Source of the DNA: Hemileia vastatrix
Taxonomy: Eukaryota > Basidiomycota > Pucciniomycetes > Pucciniales > Zaghouaniaceae
Direction: 5' to 3'
Assembly (NCBI GenBank): GCA_030280995.1
Contig: JASXTE010000002.1
Location: 39,574,183 to 39,638,182 of the forward strand
Length of the DNA: 64,000 bases
Part shown: positions 2,843 through 48,622 of the stretch, piece by piece
Layout: every line of letters begins with the position of its first letter
Numbering within the stretch: position 1 is the stretch's first letter
Translations under genes and position numbers: made by a program
The notes under the pieces: model-generated
Told to the model about the DNA's origin: nothing
The model's input: only the letters and a program-made list of their open reading frames with translations
The model's database searches: none

Positions 2843-2897
2843 CTGAAGAAGGTTTGTTATTATATATACCAACATGCTTATCAAACAAATTACTTAC
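2843..2897 (-). other. Predicted second 55-nt intron in E1 gag
   Basis: GTAAGT donor at 2897 and CTTCTTCAG acceptor ending at 2843, at the position of the E2 motif pair 41950-42007. The second-frame stop codon (TGG TAA) overlaps the donor in both copies. Whether it is spliced is unknown; the Gag frame is also open and conserved across it. Confidence 0.4.
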
Positions 2898-3406
2898 CAT
2901 GGCAAGGGAGGAAACTTCCCCTGTGTATTCTTTCTTCTGCCCCCCTGATAAGGATGGTGCTGAAGAGATGGATTGTAGTCTGGTGTCCTGGATGGGCCAG
3001 GGTGTTGAGCTGGTTGTTGTACAGTCTGTTGGTAGTGGGTCATTAAGTAATCCCATTTCCATTGTTCCACTTGCAGAATTCCTTGGTTTTGGTTGAGGGA
3101 GCTGGATGACTGACTGGCCTGAGGTTGAGGCTGAGGTTGGGAAGATGGGAAATGAGGAGGTTGACCCTGTTTGGGATTTAAAAGCTCCTGCATCTACTTC
3201 CAAAGTGTGTCTACCTTTGCCTTGTACTTCATGCTTTCTGCTCTCAGTTCCTTTATATGGCTTTACAGATTGTTTACCTGTTGTGCTAGAGGAATCTTTT
3301 TTATTTTTATACCTCTGAGTGGATTGCCCTGATGTACCTGAGGTTTTACTTCCTTCAGAGTTGTTAGGTGAGAAGGGTTTGTCACTTCTCCTGACATTTC
3401 TATGTC

Positions 3407-3461
3407 CTGAAGGTTTTTTGTCAGCTAAATTATTTTTGTAAGATACTTTGGGAGAACCTAC
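3407..3461 (-). other. Predicted 55-nt intron in E1 gag
   Basis: Complement strand: GTAGGT donor at 3461, CTGAC branch-like motif, CTTCAG acceptor ending at 3407. Its length is not a multiple of three. Joining the flanks carries the gag start frame (..DVDTES) into the second frame (DIEMSG..), exactly as the equivalent intron does in E2 (41347-41410). In E1 that second frame has stops at 3263-3265 and 3194-3196, so the spliced product is dead here. Confidence 0.62.
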
Positions 3462-17169: not shown

Positions 17170-18060
17170 AAAAAAATATTTAATTTACTTCATTTTATTG
17201 TATTTGATCTGGTTTTGCTTTATTTTATTCTATCATACTATATAATACTGTATTATATTATATTATATTTCATTTCATTTCACTTACTATTTTTTATTTA
17301 ATTTAATTTAATTTGTTTTTGTTTTTTTTTATTTTAGTATATTTTATTACCTTACATCTTCATTTAATTTTTATTATCTTATTTTATTTCAAAAGGTGAT
17401 ATTATATGTGAAAATAAAAGTCTTTAAACTGTCAAAATTAGCTGGTGAACTCTGATTTAAACCCATATATCAGAGTTCACAACCCAATTTCATGCATGTG
17501 ACCTCTGATCTACAGCTTTACATCAGAGTTCACCAACCATTTTTATGCATGTGTACTCTGATCTATGGCCATACATCAGAGTACCACATCCAAATTTTTG
17601 CATGTGAACTCTGATCTAAGGCCATACATCAGAGTTCACCAGCCAATTTTTACCAGCTAAATGCTTCTACATGGCTATACAACAGTATCCATCAAATGTA
17701 ATTAAATGACATTAAGACTTATTATAATGTAATTGAATATAAAAAAGAAAGATAGATGGGTATAATAGCTAGAATTAAAAAAGATGGATACAAACGGTAT
17801 AAAAAGAGATAAAACAAAATAAATTGTTATTATATACTTTAAAAAAAAATTTAATCAAGTGCAATCAAATAAAATAAAATTTTAATAAAATTATGTAATA
17901 CATAACCAAATACAACTTAATATAATAAAATACAACACAATACCATACAATTTAATTTGATTTAATTTGAGGTGATGAATTAAATAAAATGTTCCTATTA
18001 AAATATAATAAAATAGAATCAATTTAAAAAATTACATAATATAACATAAAATCAATTTAT
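17170..18060. repeat. T-rich and A-rich arms around the 53-bp array
   Basis: The left side (17170-17430) is T-rich with words such as TTTATTTTATT. The right side (17760-18060) is A-rich with AAATAAAATAAAAT. They are complementary in style, not base for base, giving a loose palindrome centred on the hairpin array. I see no gene. Confidence 0.45.
17444..17656. repeat. Tandem array of 53-bp hairpin units in X
   Basis: Four units start at 17445, 17498, 17551 and 17604, exactly 53 bp apart. Each has a 12-nt inverted repeat, GTGAACTCTGAT ... ATCAGAGTTCAC, around a 10-14-nt loop, with a GCATGT spacer. The outermost arms extend to GCTGGTGAACTCTGAT / ATCAGAGTTCACCAGC, so the whole array is also bounded by a longer inverted repeat. 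Confidence 0.85.
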
Positions 18061-30813: not shown

Positions 30814-31426
30814 TATTAAATTTATAAATAAAATATAAAATATATTACAATAAAACTATATATACTTTGAATATAATTAATTATCTACAAGATCTAAACT
30901 ACATGGCAATCCCTCTTCTTATATACAATTTTGGAGTAAGATATTTATTTTTTTGTGCATACTCTTTTCGTTTTGTGCATTTCATTTCATTACAAAAGTA
31001 TGTGACTATTGGATCATGTATTACACTATTCTCACTTCTCTGTTTTTATACCCCAGCTTTTCATCACAAATCATCTGTCTTTTCAGTGGTATTTCCCCTC
31101 TTATAGCTATTCTAAAAAGTATCAAATCTTTAAAATTTAAATGGTTAATTACTTTCCTACCCTTTCTTTTTCTTTTGTAACTCCTTATGGCTTTATTTAG
31201 TCTATTGTTTTTATCTTTTATCTTTCCATGCCATCTTATCACTTTTACTTTTTTATCTCTCATGTTTCTTATCCTTGTGACAAGTTTTTCTTGAGAAATT
31301 AATTTCAAATCTCTTTCAGCTGATTTGGTTTCTTGTTCACCAATGTTAGTAATGAAATTGTTTAACCCAATATTATCCTGAGATACTGTATGGACATAAG
31401 TGAGATTTGCTGTGACAATATTAACA
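30814..31426 (-). repeat. 3' LTR of E7
   Basis: 613 bp; in element orientation it begins TGTTAATATTGTCACAGC at 31426, directly after a GGAAGGGGGAA polypurine tract (31427-31437). Confidence 0.9.
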
Positions 31427-35574: not shown

Positions 35575-36187
35575 TATTAAGTTTATAAATTAAATATAAA
35601 ATATATTACAATAAAACTATATATACTTTGAATATAATTAATTATCTACAAGATCTAAACTACATGGCAATCCCTCTTCTTATATAAAATTTCTGAGTGA
35701 GATATTTATGTTTGTGTGTGTACTATTTTTGTTTTGTGCATTTCATCAAATTACAAAAGTATGTGACTATTGGATCATGTATTACACTATTCTCACTTCT
35801 CTGTCTTTTATACCCCAGCTTTTCATCACAAATCATCTGTATTTTCAGTGGTCTTTACCCTCTTATAGCTATTCTAAAAAGTATCAAATCTTTAAAATTT
35901 AAATGGTTAATTACTTTCCTACCCTTTCTTTATCTTTTTTAACTCCTTATGGCTTTATTTAGTCTATTGTGTTTATCTTTTATCTTTCCGTGCCATCTTA
36001 TCACTTTTATTTTCTATCTATCATGTTTCTTATCCTTGTGACAAGTTGTTCTTGAGAAATCAATTTCAAATCTCTTTCAGCTGATTTGGTTTCTTTTTCA
36101 CCAATGTTAGTAATGAAATTGTTTAACCCAATATTATCCTGAGATACTGTATGAACATATATGAGATTTGATGTGACAATATTAACA
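35575..36187 (-). repeat. 5' LTR of E7
   Basis: 613 bp, same ends as the 3' LTR, with scattered substitutions (for example around 35690-35760 against 30930-31000). Confidence 0.9.
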
Positions 36188-39416: not shown

Positions 39417-39421
39417 ATTGA

Positions 39422-40565
39422 TGTCAGCCAGGCTATTCCAGGAGTCCAGTAAATGATATATAAATTATAAAACCTTAAAGAATGGGTAAGACTTGTATTT
39501 AATGAATATAACTTAATATTTTATTAACATAATGAAATTATATAAGAATTTTATTATATACAAATGTTACATTAAATTTATTGGTTATATATATTTTTAT
39601 ATACAATTAAATTGAGCATAATATAATATATTCTATAAATAATGGCGCATTTTTATGTATTTAATAATTATAAATTTATATTTAATTAATTAAAAAACAT
39701 ATATTATAATTACAAGTGTAAATTTGATTTATAATATATTTAAATTAATTACTTAAATTTATATATTAACTAATACCTCTCATATGATACTAAACAATTA
39801 TTAAGGACGCTTCTTTTGACCCTTAATTGTGTTAGAAAAAAACAAATAAATTAATTTGGACTAAATTGAGATTAATTGCTTGTTTTGTTGCGTCAAATTA
39901 TTTTTTGTTTCACTTAAAATGTCCTCTAATCAGGATGTACCATCTGTTGGGAATTATATTTCTCATAGTTCCTATGTTTCCACTCTTGTTTAGTTATTTA
40001 CTATTGTCACTTACTGATTTGGGGATTAATGGCGGGGAAATTGGATTCTTAATTGGGCTTTTAATTATTTGTTTCATGTTTTTCTCTATATTGTTATGTT
40101 TCATTTACTCTTTTGATATGTTTGTTTTATTCCTTTCTAATCATTGTATTTACTGATATAGTAGCGCTTCAGAGGACCCATTGCCTATAAAAGGGCCTTG
40201 GATAATCCCCTGTAGCCTCATCACTTATTATACACTCAACAATTTAAATACAATTTTTATATTACGTTTATATTCTTTTTATTAGTAATAAAATTCTAAT
40301 TAAAATTTTATATAACAATTTAAAGGTTGCTTTAAGTCTGATAGTAATTATTTTGGTTGCCGCGCAGAACTCTTACTTAAATAATATTAATATTAATAAA
40401 ACTAAGTTATTGTCACCTCCCAGCTCACTTGTCGTTGTTTTTCTCTCAATAAATTAAATAATTTTATTAAATTTTATTTTTTTTTATTACCCATACTCCA
40501 TTCCTCCTTCTCCTCCTCTCATTCCTTCTTTTATTTTTCTCCTTCTTCTAGACGACCGGCCGACA
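39422..40565 (+). repeat. 5' LTR of E2
   Basis: 1144 bp, TGTCAGCCAGG ... CCGGCCGACA. TATAAAA at 40186-40192. A 96-codon hydrophobic ORF at 39866-40156 is present in both LTRs; I do not consider it a gene. Confidence 0.95.
40186..40192 (+). promoter_or_regulatory. TATA box of E2 5' LTR
   Basis: TTGCCTATAAAAGGGCC context, conserved in E1 despite strong divergence around it. The transcript would start a few tens of bases downstream, near 40215-40225. Confidence 0.7.
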
Positions 40566-41271
40566 ACTGAGGGCCTTTCCAAACGACGACGACGATCGAA
40601 GCCTGGCGACGAACGACATAACGCACGGACCACCTAGCAAAACGAAACTTTTGCCGCGACTGTGTTTCGAACTTGGGTTCGACATATTAGGTTTATATAA
40701 TATTAATTTTTATATTATTTTGAAGTGATTTTTCGATCACTATAGTAAGTTCACCTTTGCGCCTCTCACTCATATTACTATATTTTTATTGCAATAACAG
40801 TGATTGTGGCTTAATTGCTGATTCACTGAGTGTAAGTGTTCAATTTTTAAAAAAAAAATTTTTTTTTCCTAGTTGACCATTATAGAGTGTTAAATCCTCT
40901 TAGTCCTAGAAGAATTGACATTATTATTAATACAAATTGAATTATTAATTTAATTTTTTTTTATTATTAATTATTGTTAATTTTTGGTTGACTTAAAAGT
41001 ACATTGTGCTTAGTCCCAATATATTGCCATATTTAATATTGGTAATTAATTGGTTGAATTAACTAACTTGTTATTCCCAATTTAAACTTGCAATCCATTT
41101 TTTTTTAAAAAAATTAATTTTTTAATTATTACTTTATATTGAAAGTTATTTTTTCTATAATTTAATTAATTAAAAAAATTTTTTTTTTTTTTTTTATTTG
41201 GAGCAAATTATTGACTAACTTTGATTATTTTTTTATAAAGTACAAAGTAAAATATTAATCTTCCCACTAGT
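40566..41271 (+). other. E2 leader
   Basis: The first 120 bases are GC-rich (CGACGACGACGATCG, GCACGGACCACC, TTTTGCCGCGACTG) and conserved in E1, so this is probably a functional RNA region (priming, packaging or dimerisation). The base after the LTR is not the usual TGG. GTAAGT occurs at 40745-40750 and 40830-40835, both conserved in E1, and CTTCCCACTAG ends just before the gag ATG; a 5'-leader intron is possible. No ORF. Confidence 0.6.
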
Positions 41272-44200
41272 ATGTCCAACAATTTGACAGAAAAAATGGA
41301 TAACATGCAAGTGGATGAGATAGAAATTGACTATGATGCTGACACTGTAAGTTCTTCTAAAGTTGGTCATAAAAAATCTTATGCTAACACAAAGAATTCT
41401 CATACTGCAGGATGTGGAAATGACAGGAAATGCAAACAAACCAAACCCCCTTCCCCCAGTACCACAGAAGGAAGTAAAGCCTCTAGTGCCTCAAGAAGGT
41501 CTTCCAAAAGGCTTCAAAATAAAAAAGCTTCCTCTGCCACAACAAATCAGCAACCTCTCCAGTCATATAAAAGAGTTGAAGACAGAAAATATGACGTACA
41601 AAGCAAAGGTAGACACATTGTGGGATCAGGTCCAAGAACTCAGGAACCAGATTCAGGCCCAGGCCCCTCCTCAATTGCCTCCCAATCAGCTTCAATTTCA
41701 GGCTCAACCTTCACAGCCACCCAGCTCAACCATCCAAAATCCAAATACTATGGAAGTAGAGCAATGGAAATGGGATTATCTAATGAGTCACTACCAACAG
41801 AATGTGCAACACCTTCCTCATCATCAGCCTGGCCCATCCAGAACACCCAATTTCCATCCACCTCCTCATCCCTACCAACAAAGCAGGAGAAAGAAGGCCC
41901 AAGCACAATCCCAAACCCAGTCCCAGGGGAAGTTTCCTCCTCTGCCATGGTAAGTAATTTGGTTGATAGTCACTTGGGTATGTTTTCTAATAAATCTTCT
42001 TCTGCAGGTAATATTATTGAACATGGTGAAAGAACAGTTAAACCTGTTAAAAGACAGCTTCCTGTAACTAGTAGCCCTATTGATGTAATTAGCAAATTGT
42101 CATTTGATGAACCTTTACATTTAACTTCTACATCTTTAATTAATCCTTCTCTTGCAATTAAAAATGATTCTGTTCCCCCTGAAATCTATAACTTAATTGA
42201 AAAAACTTCTGAGGAAATATTGAAAGATACCCTTGATTTTAATATTGTGAAAGACAAACATGTGAGAGATGTGTTAATCCATGAAAATGATAGATTAAAT
42301 AATTTACACTTGCAATGTAAAGTGAGTTCTTCTGTACAAGATACAGCTTATTTAAAAATCAAAGAAACCTTGAATATTGTTCTTAGTCAACAAAAACAAA
42401 TAAGAAGTGACCATAGAGCTATCTCAGATAGAAATATCAGTCTGCATAAGACATTGAGTGAATTGAAACCCCTTATTGAGGAAAATTATTCATTCAAAAA
42501 TGAAATAAAATCTCTACAAAATGAGTTGAAGAAACTAAAAAATGACTTCCATGCACTAAGTACCAAACACTCAGTTTCTGAGGACAGAAATGTTCTATCT
42601 CTTGCAAAAGTGAATGACCAGATGTCTGAAATTCCAAGAATAAGAAACTATGTGTCTGACCTACAGGAAAAGTTCTCAACCTTAACCATCAATAATGAAT
42701 TAAATGAGATTTCTGCCAGTAAGCTGCATAAAAATAAAGGGAAAAAACCTGAACAAAGTTCATCCTTTCTTCCTCATATTTCAACCATTAAACAAACTGA
42801 CAATGAGTCTGTAAAATCTTTTGCTACTAGCAAAAAATCTTGTGATGGTCATGCACCAGCTGTTTCTGTAAATAATGAAATTTCTGAACACCTGGCTAAA
42901 CTTCAGGAATTATTACTAATGAATAATTCAAACCAAAAAGTGGACCATCCCAGTAGTCAGAAAAATTGGCCTAAGTTAGACCAATATCCTACCTTTGATG
43001 GTGATTCTTCCTCTGATTGGCAACACTTTATCCAAAGAATTGATAATTTAAAGAGATCTTATAAACTACCTGATGAGGAAATTGTTTCTAAGCTAATTTC
43101 TTTATTTTCCAATGTAGCCTTGATGTGGTATGAATCTGTCCTCTTAGATAACAATCATTATACATGGAATGATTGGAAATCCTTGATTGAGAATCAGTTT
43201 GGTGGTTCAAAATTCAGGTTAGCTCAGCAAAGACTGTATGAGAATACTAGATATGTATCCTCCTCTGTTGAAAAGCCCATTGTTTTTCTGATGAAAATAA
43301 CTAAAATCCTTAGAGCAATTGATCCAAAGATGGATTATGATATTTGGAGAGATAAAATCTTGTATAAATTACCAAATTCTCTTAGGGATTTGATTGTTGC
43401 TAGAACTGAGCATGTAAGGGAAAATTCTTCTTTCATTAATATCTGTAATGAAGTACTACTCAACCATAGATATGAACCAAAGAATTACCTTAGTAAATCT
43501 TATAGTGATCAGAATAAACCTTCTATAAAGCTCCCAGAAAAATCTGGTAAACCCTCTGCCCCAGTTGCACCTAAAAAATATGCAACAAATACTTGTTATA
43601 AATGTAACAAACCGTGGCAGAAGGGTCATGTTTGTGACAAGAAAATTCATCTTGTTGAACAAAATGAAGACACTGATGAAATTGAACTTGATGTCAATAA
43701 TTCTTCCAGTGACTGTGAAAGTAATATCTCCTATGACAATGAATCTGTTAAAGATGTTTTAATGTTAGAACATGATGTCCACTATTTAAATAATATATCT
43801 GAAGATTGTGTATTGAATTTATCTTCAGTAGAAAATGCTGAGATAATTAAAGATATTACTAACACTTCTATTCCTATATCCCCTTTAAAGGCACCTGTTA
43901 TCATTAATGGTAAAAATGTTGATGTAGTTCTTGATTCTGGTGCTGGAGGAAGTGTAGTATCTGAAAAAGCTTTGGCTTCAGTGGATAAGGAATATTTGAG
44001 TAAATTATTGCCTATAACTTCTGAAAAATGGAGAGGGTATGGTTCTACCTTATTCCCTATTGGCAAATACAAAACCTCTGTATTCTTCAAATATAATGGT
44101 GGTTTTGTCAGAGCTATTTGTGAATTTGTTGTCATGAAAAATGATAATTTGAGCAATTGGTTTATTATGGGAAATGATATTTTAACCATGTTTGGTGTGA

Positions 44201-47200
44201 AACTGGACCCAGAAAATAATTGCTTTACCTTAGGAATGAATGGGAAAAGAAAATTCAAAATTTCTTCTCCTAAACCTTCTGGGCATTTGTTGAAATCTTG
44301 TAACTCACTGACCCAATGTAAAGGTAGAACAACAACTGAAATGGATGATTTATTACATGAAATAAATACCGCTTCTTTTGGTGATCATTTGACTAATGAA
44401 CAGAAGGATTCTATTGTTGCCTCTATTACCTCTTTCCCTATGGCTTTTGCTCATGGTTCTCATGTCTTGGGAATGGTTCAGGAAGAAATGAAAATTACCT
44501 TATCCTGTAATTTGAGTGATATTCCTCCTTCCCTTAAGAAAAAACCATATCCTGCTTCTCCATCAAAAAGAAAAGATATTGAAGATAATATTGAAACATT
44601 ATTGAAAATGAATATCATTGAGAAAGTGGATGTCACCCCCAAATATTGTGTCATCTCCCCAGTCTTAATTTCTTATGAAAAAGATAAAGCTAGATTATGT
44701 GGAGATTACAGAGCTTTAAATACTTATACTGTTGATGATATTTATCCTTTACCCAGAATTAATTCAATAAATGCTACCTTGCAAGGTGCAAAATTTATTA
44801 GTTGTCTGGACGGTAATAAAGGTTATCATCAAGTTCCAGTTGAGAAAAATTCTCAAAATTTTTTGCTTATTGCTACTCATATGGGAATATATAAGTATGT
44901 TAGGATGCCATTTGGCCCTAAAAATGCTCCTTCAGTTTTCCAAAAAGTCATGGATAACACTTTCCATCAAGAAATTATTGAAGGTTGGCTCATGGTTTAT
45001 ATTGATGATATTATTGTTTTTTCTAAAACTTTTGATGAACATATGATTCATTTAAATAGAGTTTTCCAAAAAATGGATGATATCAATATGACCTTATCTT
45101 TAAAAAAGTGTAAATTTGGTTTTCAATCTTTGAAAGTCCTTGGCCATGTTGTGTCAGGCTTACAAATTTGTGTAGACCATAATAAAGTTGCTGCCATTCA
45201 AAATGTGAAAGCACCAACTTCTGTAAGAGAAATCCAAAGTTTTTTAGGTATGTGTGGCTATTATAGACAATATATTAAAAATTATCAGGTCATAGCCTTG
45301 CCTCTTACAAAACTAACCAGAAAAGATGTTGCTTTTCTCTGGAATGATGACTGTCAGAAAGCTTTTAATACATTGAAAAATTGCTTAATGACAGCCCCTA
45401 TATTGGCTCTCCCAGATTTTAACAAGCCATTTGTACTTTATACAGATGCTAGCTTTATTGGTCTGGGTGCTGCCCTTCACCAAAAGCAAATTATTAATGA
45501 TAAATCCTCAGAGGTTGTAATTTGTTATATTTCAAGAACCTTAAGAAATAGTGAATTGAAATATGGTGCCACTCAATTGGAGTGCTTAGCAGTTGTTTGG
45601 GCTCTTGAGAAACTTCATTACTACTTGGATGACCAAAAATTTGAGTTGGTAACTGACTGTAGTGCTGTGAAATCTCTCTTAAACCTCAAAACATCTAACA
45701 GACATATGTTCAGGTGGCAACTTGCTGTTCAGGAATACAGAGGAAGGATGACTATTATCCACAGAGCTGGAAATGTTCACTCTAATGTTGATATGCTCTC
45801 CAGATTGCCTCTGCCAAATAATGACTCCAATCCTGCTTATGTACCTGAGGATGACACTGTTCATATACATGGTATATTTATAGTTGATATGGAAGAAGAG
45901 TTATTACAGTTAATACTGGATTCATATGATAAAGATTCTGACTTAAATAAATTAGTTACTATTTTGAATGATCCTAAGAATGCTTCAATTCAAGCATTAA
46001 TAAAAACTCTTCCTGCAAAATACCAAAATGCTTTAAATAAAGGAAAGTTTTCTATTGAAGATGGTTATATTTATTATAGAAGGAAGCTTACCAATGTAAT
46101 TGTTATTCCTCCTTCAATGAAAGAAACTATCCTCAAACTTTGTCATGATGACATATTAGCTGGTCATTTTGATCTTGAAAAAACATTGATTAGAATCAAA
46201 AACACTGCATGGTGGGCTAATATGTCTGAAGACACAAAATTATATGTTGAATCTTGTGATTCCTGCCAAAAATCTAAAAGGTTAACAGGTAAGAGAGCAG
46301 GGTTATTACAACATATTGAAGCACCTAGTGCTCCCTGGCAAATCATTAATATGGATTTTGTCACTGGTCTTCCTGTTGCAGGTAAAGACAGCTTTAACTC
46401 TTGTTGGGTAATAGTTGATAGATTCACAAAAATGTGCAAATTTATTCCAACCCACAAAGATGTATCCACCAAGGAATTAGCTTTCTTATGGTGGTCTCAC
46501 ATGTTTAATATTATTGGTTTTCCAAAAGCCATTATCTCTGATAGGGATCCAAAATTCACTTCTGAGTTTTGGACCTCTTTGATGGATATTTGTGGCTGTG
46601 AGTTAAAATTGTCTACAGCTCACCATCCTCAGACTGATGGTCTAGCTGAAAGAATGATTCAAACTCTGGAAGATATGATTAGAAGGTATTGTGCCTTTGG
46701 TTTAGAATATAAAGACAATGACAGATTTACTCATGATTGGGTCACTCTTTTGCCTGGTCTTGAATTTGCATATAATAGCACTGTTCATTCTGTCACTGAG
46801 AAAAAGCCTTTTGAGCTTTGGTTAGGTTATGTCCCAAACACTCCTGCTCAAATTCTCAATAATAAATTACCTAAGTTGGAACTACACCCTGGTGTAAAAT
46901 CTTTTATGCAAATGCAACAGCTATGCAGAAAACATGCTCAGAGTTGTATTGATAAAGCATTTGAATATGAAAAGAAAAGATGGGATAAATCCCATAAAGA
47001 ATACACATTTAACAAGGGTGATGAAGTGTTGATCTCTACTGTCCATTTCAATTTACAAGGTAACCACAAATTAAAAGATCCTTTTGTAGGACCATTTGTT
47101 GTTAAAAGAATGGTTGGTGATAATGCAGTAGAAGTTGTATTGTATTCTCCATATGATAGGAAACATCCTGTCTTTCCCATTTCTTTGCTTAAACCTTATA

Positions 47201-47439
47201 CTTCCAACAGTGACTTATTTCCAAAAAGAAGAGGAAGACCTAAGAAGAACCCTCAGGAAGTCACAGAAACAGCAGAAATTGATAAAATTCTCAATGATAG
47301 AATTATCACTTCTGAAAGAGGTACTGAATATTTATTGAGATATAAGAACAAATCATCTGAACATGATGCATGGATACCTGGCAAAGAAATTTCAAATCTG
47401 CCTGCTCTGTTGAAAAAATACAAAAAGAAAAAATCTTAG
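41272..47439 (+). CDS. E2 Gag-Pol polyprotein, 2055 residues
   Basis: Single frame, ATG 41272 to TAG 47437-47439. By residue: acidic N-terminus (1-25); low-complexity Ser/Pro region (26-230) overlapping the second frame; predicted coiled coil (about 330-470); Gag core (565-720); zinc knuckle CYKCNKPWQKGHVC (775-788); protease with DSGAGGS (Asp888); RT with LCGDYRALN (1142-1150) and YIDD (1243-1246); RNase H (TDAS, Asp1392); integrase HHCC (His1625, His1632, Cys1662, Cys1665) and D1695-D1757-E1793 (61 and 35 residues between); AT-hook-like RRGRPKK (1986-1992); chromodomain (about 2002-2050). All key residues are present. Known: it copies element RNA and integrates the cDNA; chromodomains target heterochromatin. 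This is the only full-length coding element in the window. Confidence 0.96.
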   Translation: MSNNLTEKMDNMQVDEIEIDYDADTVSSSKVGHKKSYANTKNSHTAGCGNDRKCKQTKPPSPSTTEGSKASSASRRSSKRLQNKKASSATTNQQPLQSYKRVEDRKYDVQSKGRHIVGSGPRTQEPDSGPGPSSIASQSASISGSTFTATQLNHPKSKYYGSRAMEMGLSNESLPTECATPSSSSAWPIQNTQFPSTSSSLPTKQEKEGPSTIPNPVPGEVSSSAMVSNLVDSHLGMFSNKSSSAGNIIEHGERTVKPVKRQLPVTSSPIDVISKLSFDEPLHLTSTSLINPSLAIKNDSVPPEIYNLIEKTSEEILKDTLDFNIVKDKHVRDVLIHENDRLNNLHLQCKVSSSVQDTAYLKIKETLNIVLSQQKQIRSDHRAISDRNISLHKTLSELKPLIEENYSFKNEIKSLQNELKKLKNDFHALSTKHSVSEDRNVLSLAKVNDQMSEIPRIRNYVSDLQEKFSTLTINNELNEISASKLHKNKGKKPEQSSSFLPHISTIKQTDNESVKSFATSKKSCDGHAPAVSVNNEISEHLAKLQELLLMNNSNQKVDHPSSQKNWPKLDQYPTFDGDSSSDWQHFIQRIDNLKRSYKLPDEEIVSKLISLFSNVALMWYESVLLDNNHYTWNDWKSLIENQFGGSKFRLAQQRLYENTRYVSSSVEKPIVFLMKITKILRAIDPKMDYDIWRDKILYKLPNSLRDLIVARTEHVRENSSFINICNEVLLNHRYEPKNYLSKSYSDQNKPSIKLPEKSGKPSAPVAPKKYATNTCYKCNKPWQKGHVCDKKIHLVEQNEDTDEIELDVNNSSSDCESNISYDNESVKDVLMLEHDVHYLNNISEDCVLNLSSVENAEIIKDITNTSIPISPLKAPVIINGKNVDVVLDSGAGGSVVSEKALASVDKEYLSKLLPITSEKWRGYGSTLFPIGKYKTSVFFKYNGGFVRAICEFVVMKNDNLSNWFIMGNDILTMFGVKLDPENNCFTLGMNGKRKFKISSPKPSGHLLKSCNSLTQCKGRTTTEMDDLLHEINTASFGDHLTNEQKDSIVASITSFPMAFAHGSHVLGMVQEEMKITLSCNLSDIPPSLKKKPYPASPSKRKDIEDNIETLLKMNIIEKVDVTPKYCVISPVLISYEKDKARLCGDYRALNTYTVDDIYPLPRINSINATLQGAKFISCLDGNKGYHQVPVEKNSQNFLLIATHMGIYKYVRMPFGPKNAPSVFQKVMDNTFHQEIIEGWLMVYIDDIIVFSKTFDEHMIHLNRVFQKMDDINMTLSLKKCKFGFQSLKVLGHVVSGLQICVDHNKVAAIQNVKAPTSVREIQSFLGMCGYYRQYIKNYQVIALPLTKLTRKDVAFLWNDDCQKAFNTLKNCLMTAPILALPDFNKPFVLYTDASFIGLGAALHQKQIINDKSSEVVICYISRTLRNSELKYGATQLECLAVVWALEKLHYYLDDQKFELVTDCSAVKSLLNLKTSNRHMFRWQLAVQEYRGRMTIIHRAGNVHSNVDMLSRLPLPNNDSNPAYVPEDDTVHIHGIFIVDMEEELLQLILDSYDKDSDLNKLVTILNDPKNASIQALIKTLPAKYQNALNKGKFSIEDGYIYYRRKLTNVIVIPPSMKETILKLCHDDILAGHFDLEKTLIRIKNTAWWANMSEDTKLYVESCDSCQKSKRLTGKRAGLLQHIEAPSAPWQIINMDFVTGLPVAGKDSFNSCWVIVDRFTKMCKFIPTHKDVSTKELAFLWWSHMFNIIGFPKAIISDRDPKFTSEFWTSLMDICGCELKLSTAHHPQTDGLAERMIQTLEDMIRRYCAFGLEYKDNDRFTHDWVTLLPGLEFAYNSTVHSVTEKKPFELWLGYVPNTPAQILNNKLPKLELHPGVKSFMQMQQLCRKHAQSCIDKAFEYEKKRWDKSHKEYTFNKGDEVLISTVHFNLQGNHKLKDPFVGPFVVKRMVGDNAVEVVLYSPYDRKHPVFPISLLKPYTSNSDLFPKRRGRPKKNPQEVTETAEIDKILNDRIITSERGTEYLLRYKNKSSEHDAWIPGKEISNLPALLKKYKKKKS
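41347..41410 (+). other. Predicted 64-nt intron in E2 gag
   Basis: Donor GTAAGT at 41347, branch motif GCTAAC with A at 41387 (23 nt before the acceptor AG), acceptor ACTGCAG ending at 41410. These are close to ideal fungal signals. The length is 64, so removal changes frame. Codon 25 (ACT) joins GATGTGGAAATG, entering the second frame. E1 has a 55-nt equivalent (3407-3461) with the same effect on frame. Retention gives Gag-Pol; splicing gives a 205-residue protein. Confidence 0.72.
41411..41953 (+). CDS. Second overlapping frame in E2 gag (exon 2 of predicted spliced protein)
   Basis: Open for 180 codons in the frame +1 to Gag-Pol, ending FPPLPW then TAA (41951-41953). It has no convincing ATG of its own, but splicing of 41347-41410 attaches it to the Gag-Pol start (25 codons), giving 205 residues. 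The product has a heptad-like, charged segment (PQQISNLSSHIKELKTENMT, then KAKVDTLWDQVQEL), a Pro/Gln-rich linker, a VEQWKWDYLMSHYQQ motif and a Pro/Arg-rich tail. E1 keeps the same protein with two stops. Hand alignment: 27 of 37 residues identical in one stretch (Gag frame 19 of 38) and 16 of 18 around VEQWKWDYLM (Gag frame 11 of 18). I recognise no family; a small structural or regulatory Gag-like protein is a guess. Confidence 0.68.
   Translation, partial: DVEMTGNANKPNPLPPVPQKEVKPLVPQEGLPKGFKIKKLPLPQQISNLSSHIKELKTENMTYKAKVDTLWDQVQELRNQIQAQAPPQLPPNQLQFQAQPSQPPSSTIQNPNTMEVEQWKWDYLMSHYQQNVQHLPHHQPGPSRTPNFHPPPHPYQQSRRKKAQAQSQTQSQGKFPPLPW
41950..42007 (+). other. Predicted second intron, 58 nt, at end of second frame
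   Basis: Donor GTAAGT at 41950, CTAAT branch-like motif near 41987, acceptor CTTCTTCTGCAG ending at 42007. The acceptor is followed by GTAAT, so the second frame ends TGG TAA whether or not this intron is removed. E1 has the same arrangement (2843-2897). The Gag-Pol frame is open and conserved through it, so it is normally retained in gag-pol RNA. Confidence 0.4.
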
Positions 47440-47473: not shown

Positions 47474-48617
47474 TGTCAGCCAGGCTATTCCAGGAGTCCA
47501 GTAAATGATATATAAATTATAAAACCTTAAAGAATGGGTAAGACTTGTATTTAATGAATATAACTTAATATTTTATTAACATAATGAAATTATATAAGAA
47601 TTTTATTATATACAAATGTTACATTAAATTTATTGGTTATATATATTTTTATATACAATTAAATTGAGCATAATATAATATATTCTATAAATAATGGCGC
47701 ATTTTTATGTATTTAATAATTATAAATTTATATTTAATTAATTAAAAAACATATATTATAATTACAAGTGTAAATTTGATTTATAATATATTTAAATTAA
47801 TTACTTAAATTTATATATTAACTAATACCTCTCATATGATACTAAACAATTATTAAGGACGCTTCTTTTGACCCTTAATTGTGTTAGAAAAAAACAAATA
47901 AATTAATTTGGACTAAATTGAGATTAATTGCTTGTTTTGTTGCGTCAAATTATTTTTTGTTTCACTTAAAATGTCCTCTAATCAGGATGTACCATCTGTT
48001 GGGAATTATATTTCTCATAGTTCCTATGTTTCCACTCTTGTTTAGTTATTTACTATTGTCACTTACTGATTTGGGGATTAATGGCGGGGAAATTGGATTC
48101 TTAATTGGGCTTTTAATTATTTGTTTCATGTTTTTCTCTATATTGTTATGTTTCATTTACTCTTTTGATATGTTTGTTTTATTCCTTTCTAATCATTGTA
48201 TTTACTGATATAGTAGCGCTTCAGAGGACCCATTGCCTATAAAAGGGCCTTGGATAATCCCCTGTAGCCTCATCACTTATTATACACTCAACAATTTAAA
48301 TACAATTTTTATATTACGTTTATATTCTTTTTATTAGTAATAAAATTCTAATTAAAATTTTATATAACAATTTAAAGGTTTCTTTAAGTCTGATAGTAAT
48401 TATTTTGGTTGCCGCGCAGAACTCTTACTTAAATAATATTAATATTAATAAAACTAAGTTGTTGTCACCTCCCAGCTCACTTGTCGTTGTTTTTCTCTCA
48501 ATAAATTAAATAATTTTATTAAATTTTATTTTTTTTTATTACCCATACTCCATTCCTCCTTCTCCTCCTCTCATTCCTTCTTTTATTTTTCTCCTTCTTC
48601 TAGACGACCGGCCGACA
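47474..48617 (+). repeat. 3' LTR of E2
   Basis: 1144 bp, the same ends as the 5' LTR, with two base differences (48381, 48461). Follows the polypurine tract at 47462-47473. Confidence 0.95.
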
Positions 48618-48622
48618 ATTGA

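Follow-up and report, generated by a model that had tools for sequence, protein, structure and literature searches.

Results

Two related LTR retrotransposons, E2 on the plus strand and E1 on the minus strand, lie in the window (the whole stretch of 64,000 nucleotides that was analysed); E1 is a diverged relative of E2 and is truncated by the window start. Features (coordinates, strand, description):

39417..39421, plus strand: 5' copy of the 5-bp target-site duplication, ATTGA; repeated at 48618-48622
39422..40565, plus strand: 5' LTR of E2, TGTCAG...CCGACA, 1144 nt; direct repeat, offset 8052, two mismatches
40571..41271, plus strand: ATG-free leader, 701 nt scanned; 0 ATG, 9.8 expected (Markov)
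41272..47439, plus strand: Gag-Pol frame of unspliced RNA; open reading frame 41251-47439 and Pfam
41272..41346, plus strand: exon 1, common to Gag-Pol and the spliced product; in-frame ATGs 41272, 41296, 41305; directly followed by exon 2 in 17 copies of the genome
41347..41410, plus strand: intron 1, 64 nt, GTAAGT ... GCTAAC ... CTGCAG; Gag frame open through it; missing with exact ends in 17 copies
41411..41953, plus strand: exon 2, read in the second frame; 180 codons plus stop; protein coiled-coil-like, of 205 residues when exon 1 is included
41947..41949, plus strand: ATG in CCATGG context, Gag frame, just ahead of the second-frame stop 41951-41953
41950..42007, plus strand: intron 2, 58 nt, GTAAGT ... 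CTAAT ... CTGCAG; filter candidate, missing in 8 of 17 junction copies
47474..48617, plus strand: 3' LTR of E2; direct repeat of 39422-40565
48618..48622, plus strand: target-site duplication ATTGA, 5 bp, 3' copy; matches 39417..39421
2894..3406, minus strand: E1 second-frame exon, two internal stops
3407..3461, minus strand: E1 intron 1, 55 nt, GTAGGT ... GCTGAC ... CTTCAG; 55 nt in all 30 E1-type rows

The open reading frame 41251-47439 (2062 codons, stop to stop) is the single Gag-Pol frame of E2; a protease-like match, below Pfam's cut-off, is followed by RVT_1, RT_RNaseH, Integrase_H2C2, rve (also below the cut-off) and Chromo. With its LTRs, target-site duplication and the order reverse transcriptase, RNase H, integrase and chromodomain, E2 is a Ty3/gypsy chromovirus. 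The gap between the pol stop (47439) and the 3' LTR (47474) is 34 nt. Among the 120 pol relatives listed of 319, the closest gave 59 and 58%; Puccinia striiformis was highest of the named organisms and was followed by Rhodotorula and other genera of the Pucciniomycotina. No match to the pol profile was found in IMG/VR.

The host genome (748 Mb, 791 contigs) was searched for copies; a first look gave 1585 candidates for the E2 region and 3380 for the E1 region. The best 40 of the 1585 E2-type matches were nearly identical and the best E1-type matches lay 3-4% from E1; the former are a recent burst, the latter an older one. Identity of E1 and E2 in the interior was 79% (4138 aligned columns). 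Third-position divergence between the two changed in a sharp step, 0.50 in 42381-42900 vs 0.16 in 42901-44840; the step near 42901 suggests either that subfamilies have recombined or that the 5' part and the pol part have had very different histories. Elsewhere in the window, direct repeats 93-96% alike (30814-31426 and 35575-36187) stand around a minus-strand Ty1/copia-like element (RVT_2, integrase), and a tandem array with a period of 53 nt was observed at 17445-17709.

When 41347-41410 is taken out of E2, MSNNLTEKMDNMQVDEIEIDYDADT runs on into DVEMTGNANK ... GKFPPLPW, 205 residues in total; when the 55-nt segment is taken out of E1, at the homologous place, the gag start frame likewise enters a frame ending GKFPPLPW-stop. 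The bases are as the earlier note had given them: intron-like segments at homologous places in gag of both elements, each shifting the gag start frame into the second frame. The first ATG common to both copies, however, is 41296 and not 41272. The claim that the second frame has no good ATG without splicing needs a qualification: ATGs are present in frame 2 ahead of the conserved part at 41381 (inside the E2 intron) and 41420 (both copies), but three Gag-frame ATGs precede them. A strict intron filter (GT[AG][ATG]GT, CT[AG]A[CT], [CT]AG; length 45-85 nt) gave three candidates only in the 6.9 kb E2 interior, two of them being 41347-41410 and 41950-42007; in E2-like random sequence 0.72 donors were expected. 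Over 4.1 kb of E1, the homologous donor was the sole donor with a match. Eight indels separate E1 and E2 between the intron and 42023; the length of each is a multiple of three, including one of 9 nt inside the intron.

Spliced copies: The exon 1/exon 2 junction of E2 was searched for as a pattern of 29 bases with up to three mismatches in the 748 Mb; 17 matches were obtained (12 exact, 3 with one mismatch, 2 with two), and the reversed control pattern gave 0. Alignment to E2 restarts exactly at 41411 in 17 of 17 copies; exon 1 is readable ahead of the junction (in copy L067 its end only), and leader and LTR align upstream in 14 copies, L076 and L077 giving no upstream alignment. L067 has no leader: its LTR end runs straight into exon 1 at the third ATG. 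Intron 1 and part of exon 2 are also absent from this copy. The copies are 0.3 to 9.0% from E2 and up to 12.0% from each other, so that several events are represented; two pairs are near-identical (L071/L072, 0.0%; L076/L077, 0.5% different), so that the events are fewer than 17. Each pair lies on one contig, its members about 8 kb apart, and is apparently a pair of tandem elements or a duplicated segment. L066, in which both introns are missing, has CAAAC before the 5' LTR start and after the 3' LTR end (5-bp duplication); its LTR ends, some 9 kb from each other, lie where those of this element would be expected, and its interior was read in part. No LTR match was found for L061 within the 3' stretch examined. 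Exact removal of the intron is seen here indirectly, from genomic DNA copies; the exact intron loss, together with the LTR-end duplication of L066, indicates that spliced RNA of the element was made, reverse-transcribed and integrated, and splicing at the sites proposed earlier is borne out by the exact exon junction in the 17 copies.

Intron 2: This intron is absent from 8 and present in 9 of the 17 junction copies (the gap was placed one base earlier by the aligner, which is equivalent, G standing at both ends); both states occur among the copies closest to E2 (L061 with intron 2, L066 without). It begins at the G of the last second-frame codon and includes the second-frame stop; exon 3 starts GTAATA, and the second-frame protein ends PPLPW-stop with or without intron 2. 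The E1 bases at this place give the same protein end by reading, yet failed the intron filter. Without intron 2, ATG 41947 would no longer be in frame with Gag-Pol, and the splicing of this intron may be one more means of keeping spliced RNA from yielding Gag-Pol. An intron in the leader, where GTAAGT stands at 40745 and 40832, is not claimed: of the 17 junction copies, the 14 with a leader alignable to E2 all retain the stretch, L067 has lost it, and L076 and L077 do not align in this part. Both leader donors are kept in E1 (4021, 3934), with no obvious use.

Selection on the second frame: The dual-coding tests were run on copies within the Hemileia vastatrix genome. Over 41411-41950, E1 and E2 differ at 73/168 third, 39/168 first and 37/168 second positions of frame 2; from 41951 downstream, the Gag-frame third position becomes the most variable phase. 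Under a Poisson model with two frames (w1, Gag frame; w2, second frame), E2 as reference gave w2 0.47 and w1 1.12, and inclusion of frame 2 had p 1.1e-5; E1 as reference gave w2 0.48 and w1 1.08 (p 1.0e-6). For inclusion of frame 1 the p-values were 0.037 and 0.008; w1 was close to 1 and changes that create stops were few. In three downstream stretches w1 was 0.30 to 0.58 and w2 1.05 to 1.35. Adding frame 2 in the control stretch 42901-44840 gave p 0.0036 and 0.037, but toward w2 >1; this control also reaches low p, and the p-values of the model are therefore somewhat liberal. No significant selection was found in exon 1 alone (14 substitutions, p 0.16 to 0.39; too short), and nothing significant in intron 1 alone. 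Each of the 30 E1-type rows against E2 had w2 0.40-0.49 and w1 0.93-1.19, values that share a single E2 and come from rows that are not independent.

Permutation of the Gag-frame codon columns gave a second-frame identity below that observed (P 0.0018); no frame-2 excess was found in either control stretch. As a neutral control, 152 singleton changes in the E1-type rows fell on the phases as 53/45/54; this even spread indicates that mutation alone does not create the skew. Changes at frame-2 third positions against E2 numbered 31 in L074, 20 in L075 and 34 in L076 (other positions, 9 to 17; L074 and L076 are related, 5.0% apart); L073, closer to E2, has 9 such changes vs 2 and 6. The openness of frame 2 by itself is weak (P 0.08 and 0.25 in E2) and was not used as evidence, nor were the intact frames of the best 40 of 1585 E2-type matches, which reflect search selection; all 30 E2-type loci read had frame 2 intact, and in 24 the Gag frame stayed open as far as the locus reached. 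Between E2 and E1 the second frame is under purifying selection (w2 0.47-0.48), whereas the Gag frame over the same bases drifts in sequence (w1 about 1.1).

Stops in E1-type rows: The rows (n = 30; E1 together with the 29 copies that match it best among 3380 candidates) all carry a 55-nt intron 1; the donor is GTAGGT in 27 and the acceptor CTTCAG in 29. Frame 2 is open to residue 170 in 11 of the 30; in the other 19 the first stops fall at 14 places, one of them used in three rows and three in two. First stops at frame-2 residues 107, 119 and 143 recur in two or three of the 30 rows. Of the 27 rows in which the Gag-frame ATG was found, 14 have no stop in that frame over the piece. In E1 itself, two stops were counted in the 0.5-kb second frame vs two stops and one frameshift in the 3.5-kb Gag-Pol frame, a density higher than even decay would suggest. 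The first frame-2 stop of E1 (residue 47) is the first stop in no other row; with 11 of 30 rows open, the reading of the E1 stops as marks of a dead copy, given in the earlier note, holds. As a whole, the stops of the E1-type rows look like the decay of inserted copies, a few of the changes being shared or recurrent.

Gag frame and leader: No stop occurs in the Gag frame of E2 or E1 over the overlap, where 7.1 and 7.4 (second estimate, 11.3 and 9.5) were expected. When synonymous codons were shuffled with the second-frame protein held fixed, an open Gag frame survived once in 20,000 trials for E2 and never in 20,000 for E1; the frame is also open across intron 1 in both copies despite the 9-nt indel. 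Gag-frame residues, with stop pairs left out, had an identity of 0.461 vs 0.440 under the null (P 0.17), i.e., no conservation beyond the frame-2 constraint; counted with stops as mismatches, 0.461 stood against a null of 0.398 (P 0.0015), a difference that is gone when stop pairs are omitted. The earlier interpretation has to be amended here: no conservation of residues is detectable in the overlapped Gag-frame stretch, which is a drifting N-terminal extension held stop-free. On the simplest reading, scanning ribosomes begin in the Gag frame of unspliced RNA and have to cross the overlap to reach Gag and Pol, so that stops are barred while residues are free. With one frame constrained and the other kept open in these copies, the stretch is an overlapping, dual-coding gene. 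A 636-nt piece of the E1 leader, like that of E2, holds 0 ATG (8.7 expected), and the first three ATGs after the E2 leader (41272, 41296, 41305) are in the Gag frame; the ATG-free leader accounts for Gag-Pol from unspliced RNA. Retention of the intron as the route to Gag-Pol, as the earlier note had it, is favoured by this leader and by the stop-free Gag frame.

Second-frame protein: No relative at E <= 1 was found in the protein database (21 candidates, within the length and word limits of the search) or in the Protein Data Bank, and none in IMG/VR; against the 120 listed of 319 pol relatives the best E was 0.068 (phmmer) and 0.080 (blastp). Pfam gave weak coiled-coil matches only, below the cut-off. 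A single-sequence AlphaFold model, made without an alignment (mean pLDDT 61), has helices at 42-84 (43 residues) and 114-132 (19 residues). For the Gag region, none of 6965 candidates reached E <= 0.001, and none was found in IMG/VR; one blastp match of the Gag-frame stretch (0.002) was not counted, the sequence being of low complexity and the value without composition correction.

The few filter candidates, the phase skew, the two-frame model and the 17 genomic junctions confirm that the spliced overlapping gene in gag is more than chance.

Discussion

It is very probable, on the sequence data, that E2 and its relatives obtain two products from one stretch of RNA, Gag-Pol from the unspliced and the second-frame protein from the spliced form. 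On unspliced genomic RNA, translation would start at the first ATG (41272 or 41296) and pass via the retained intron 1 into Gag-Pol; after removal of intron 1, the same start would enter the second frame and give the 205-residue protein with its long predicted helix. Intron 2, at the stop codon, is optional, its removal leaving the protein unchanged. This assignment of RNAs to products is inferred, and the second-frame protein would presumably act in trans on RNA or particles of the element. As no homologue was found in the databases searched, its function is argued from analogy; our first choice, tentatively held, is that it regulates unspliced RNA in the manner of CERV of Cer1, through its retention, its export from the nucleus or its packaging.

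Known systems: That nothing like this had been described for this type of element, as the earlier note stated, is not correct, since CERV of Cer1 is close (PMC10309623). In the available parts of the sources, CERV of this Ty3/gypsy element of C. elegans is made from a spliced mRNA with gag exons and one exon in another frame; it is nuclear and required for export of unspliced RNA (PMC10309623; PMC3315495). It has 517 residues from five exons, exon 4 lying in a different frame within gag (PMC10309623). As far as these sources go, both elements are of Ty3/gypsy type with a long Gag-Pol frame, Gag-Pol coming from unspliced RNA (proposed for E2); both accessory products use a spliced mRNA with the gag start and a second-frame exon in gag (the E2 mRNA is known from genomic copies); both are orphan proteins with a helical part (leucine-zipper-like in CERV, predicted in E2); and the splice signals of Cer1 recur in related elements, those of E2 in E1. 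In the same accounts, only one of the five CERV exons is second-frame, whereas in E2 the entire second exon is, with 180 codons; the C-terminal half of CERV comes from an open reading frame 3' of pol, for which the 34 nt between pol and the 3' LTR of E2 hold no counterpart; and the role in RNA export is shown for CERV, while that of the E2 protein is proposed by analogy.

Gene overlaps of retroviral regulators such as HIV Rev are located elsewhere than that of E2. Rev-type regulators (Rev is mentioned in the part of PMC3315495 available) resemble the E2 product in that spliced RNA gives an accessory protein and unspliced RNA gives Gag-Pol. BARE1, a Ty1/copia element of barley, has like E2 a short facultative intron (104 nt) whose retention gives a long and whose splicing gives a short product; its junction at the gag end merely ends the protein, and the available text describes no second-frame protein (PMC3735527). 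Ogre (plant Ty3) and Drosophila copia are LTR retrotransposons that also use splicing, but Ogre splices between open reading frames and copia removes most of pol; an overlapping second frame is not mentioned for either in the available parts of the sources (PMC3735527, PMC12786077). No fungal case was found in the open PubMed Central literature, which most subscription journals lie outside, among titles and abstract starts of the matches listed. The kind is known from CERV; new, as far as these searches show, are a 180-codon second-frame exon in the N-terminal extension of Gag-Pol and an intron at the stop codon, in a fungal chromovirus.

Other readings: The same architecture could serve a protein that acts on Gag or the particles and not on RNA, as an assembly aid or as a copy control like p22 of Ty1; this is our second choice and somewhat doubtful. 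Its first 25 residues are common to Gag-Pol and a helix of 43 residues is predicted, which would suit such a role; p22 is an in-frame fragment of Gag, unlike the second-frame protein. The Ty1 control protein, as far as the available text goes, is made from within GAG (PMC8458377). A different arrangement, in which the second frame is the sole coding frame, Gag-Pol arises by re-initiation at AUGGUAA from ATG 41947, and the open upstream Gag frame is a passenger, appears improbable. The upstream Gag residues are indeed not conserved beyond what frame 2 forces (P 0.17; w1 about 1.1), and ATG 41947 stands in CCATGG and is kept in E1; a passenger frame, however, would not be expected to lack stops in both copies (0, against 7 to 11 expected) or to stay open through the intron despite a 9-nt indel between them, and the first ATGs past the ATG-free leader are in the Gag frame.

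Access to frame 2 on unspliced RNA by leaky scanning, with splicing incidental, is very unlikely: ATG 41381 of E2, inside the intron, does lead directly into frame 2, and E1 shares ATG 41420 (DVEM / DIEM), but these are preceded by three ATGs of the Gag frame (41272, 41296, 41305) as well as three frame-2 starts that are short (41315, 41333, 41336), and exon 1 is precisely joined to frame 2 in 17 copies. Least probable is cryptic splicing driven by the host that shuts off Gag-Pol and leaves the second-frame product as a by-product without function. Splicing alone would stop Gag-Pol synthesis, and removal of the BARE1 intron at the gag end is such a switch according to the available text (PMC3735527); against it stand the purifying selection on second-frame residues, the preservation in both E1 and E2 of the splice sites and the frame shift, and the 55-nt intron in 30 of 30 E1-type rows.

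Conclusion

Two products from one RNA stretch remain the preferred reading for E2. A larger reading, made by analogy and at present rather speculative, is that this fungal chromovirus may have come independently to a control of retroviral style: an overprinted, spliced, trans-acting accessory gene for the nuclear exit of intron-bearing RNA, with a second, optional intron at the stop codon. The case presents overprinting combined with splicing in a fungal Ty3 element, backed by spliced genomic copies and by selection statistics, and offers a testable example of a Gag-frame stretch that is held open but free in sequence, letting another frame be conserved. Annotation by the longest open reading frame would miss the conserved second-frame protein. 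Together with Cer1, the element suggests that spliced accessory genes of retroviral kind arose more than once among Ty3-type elements.
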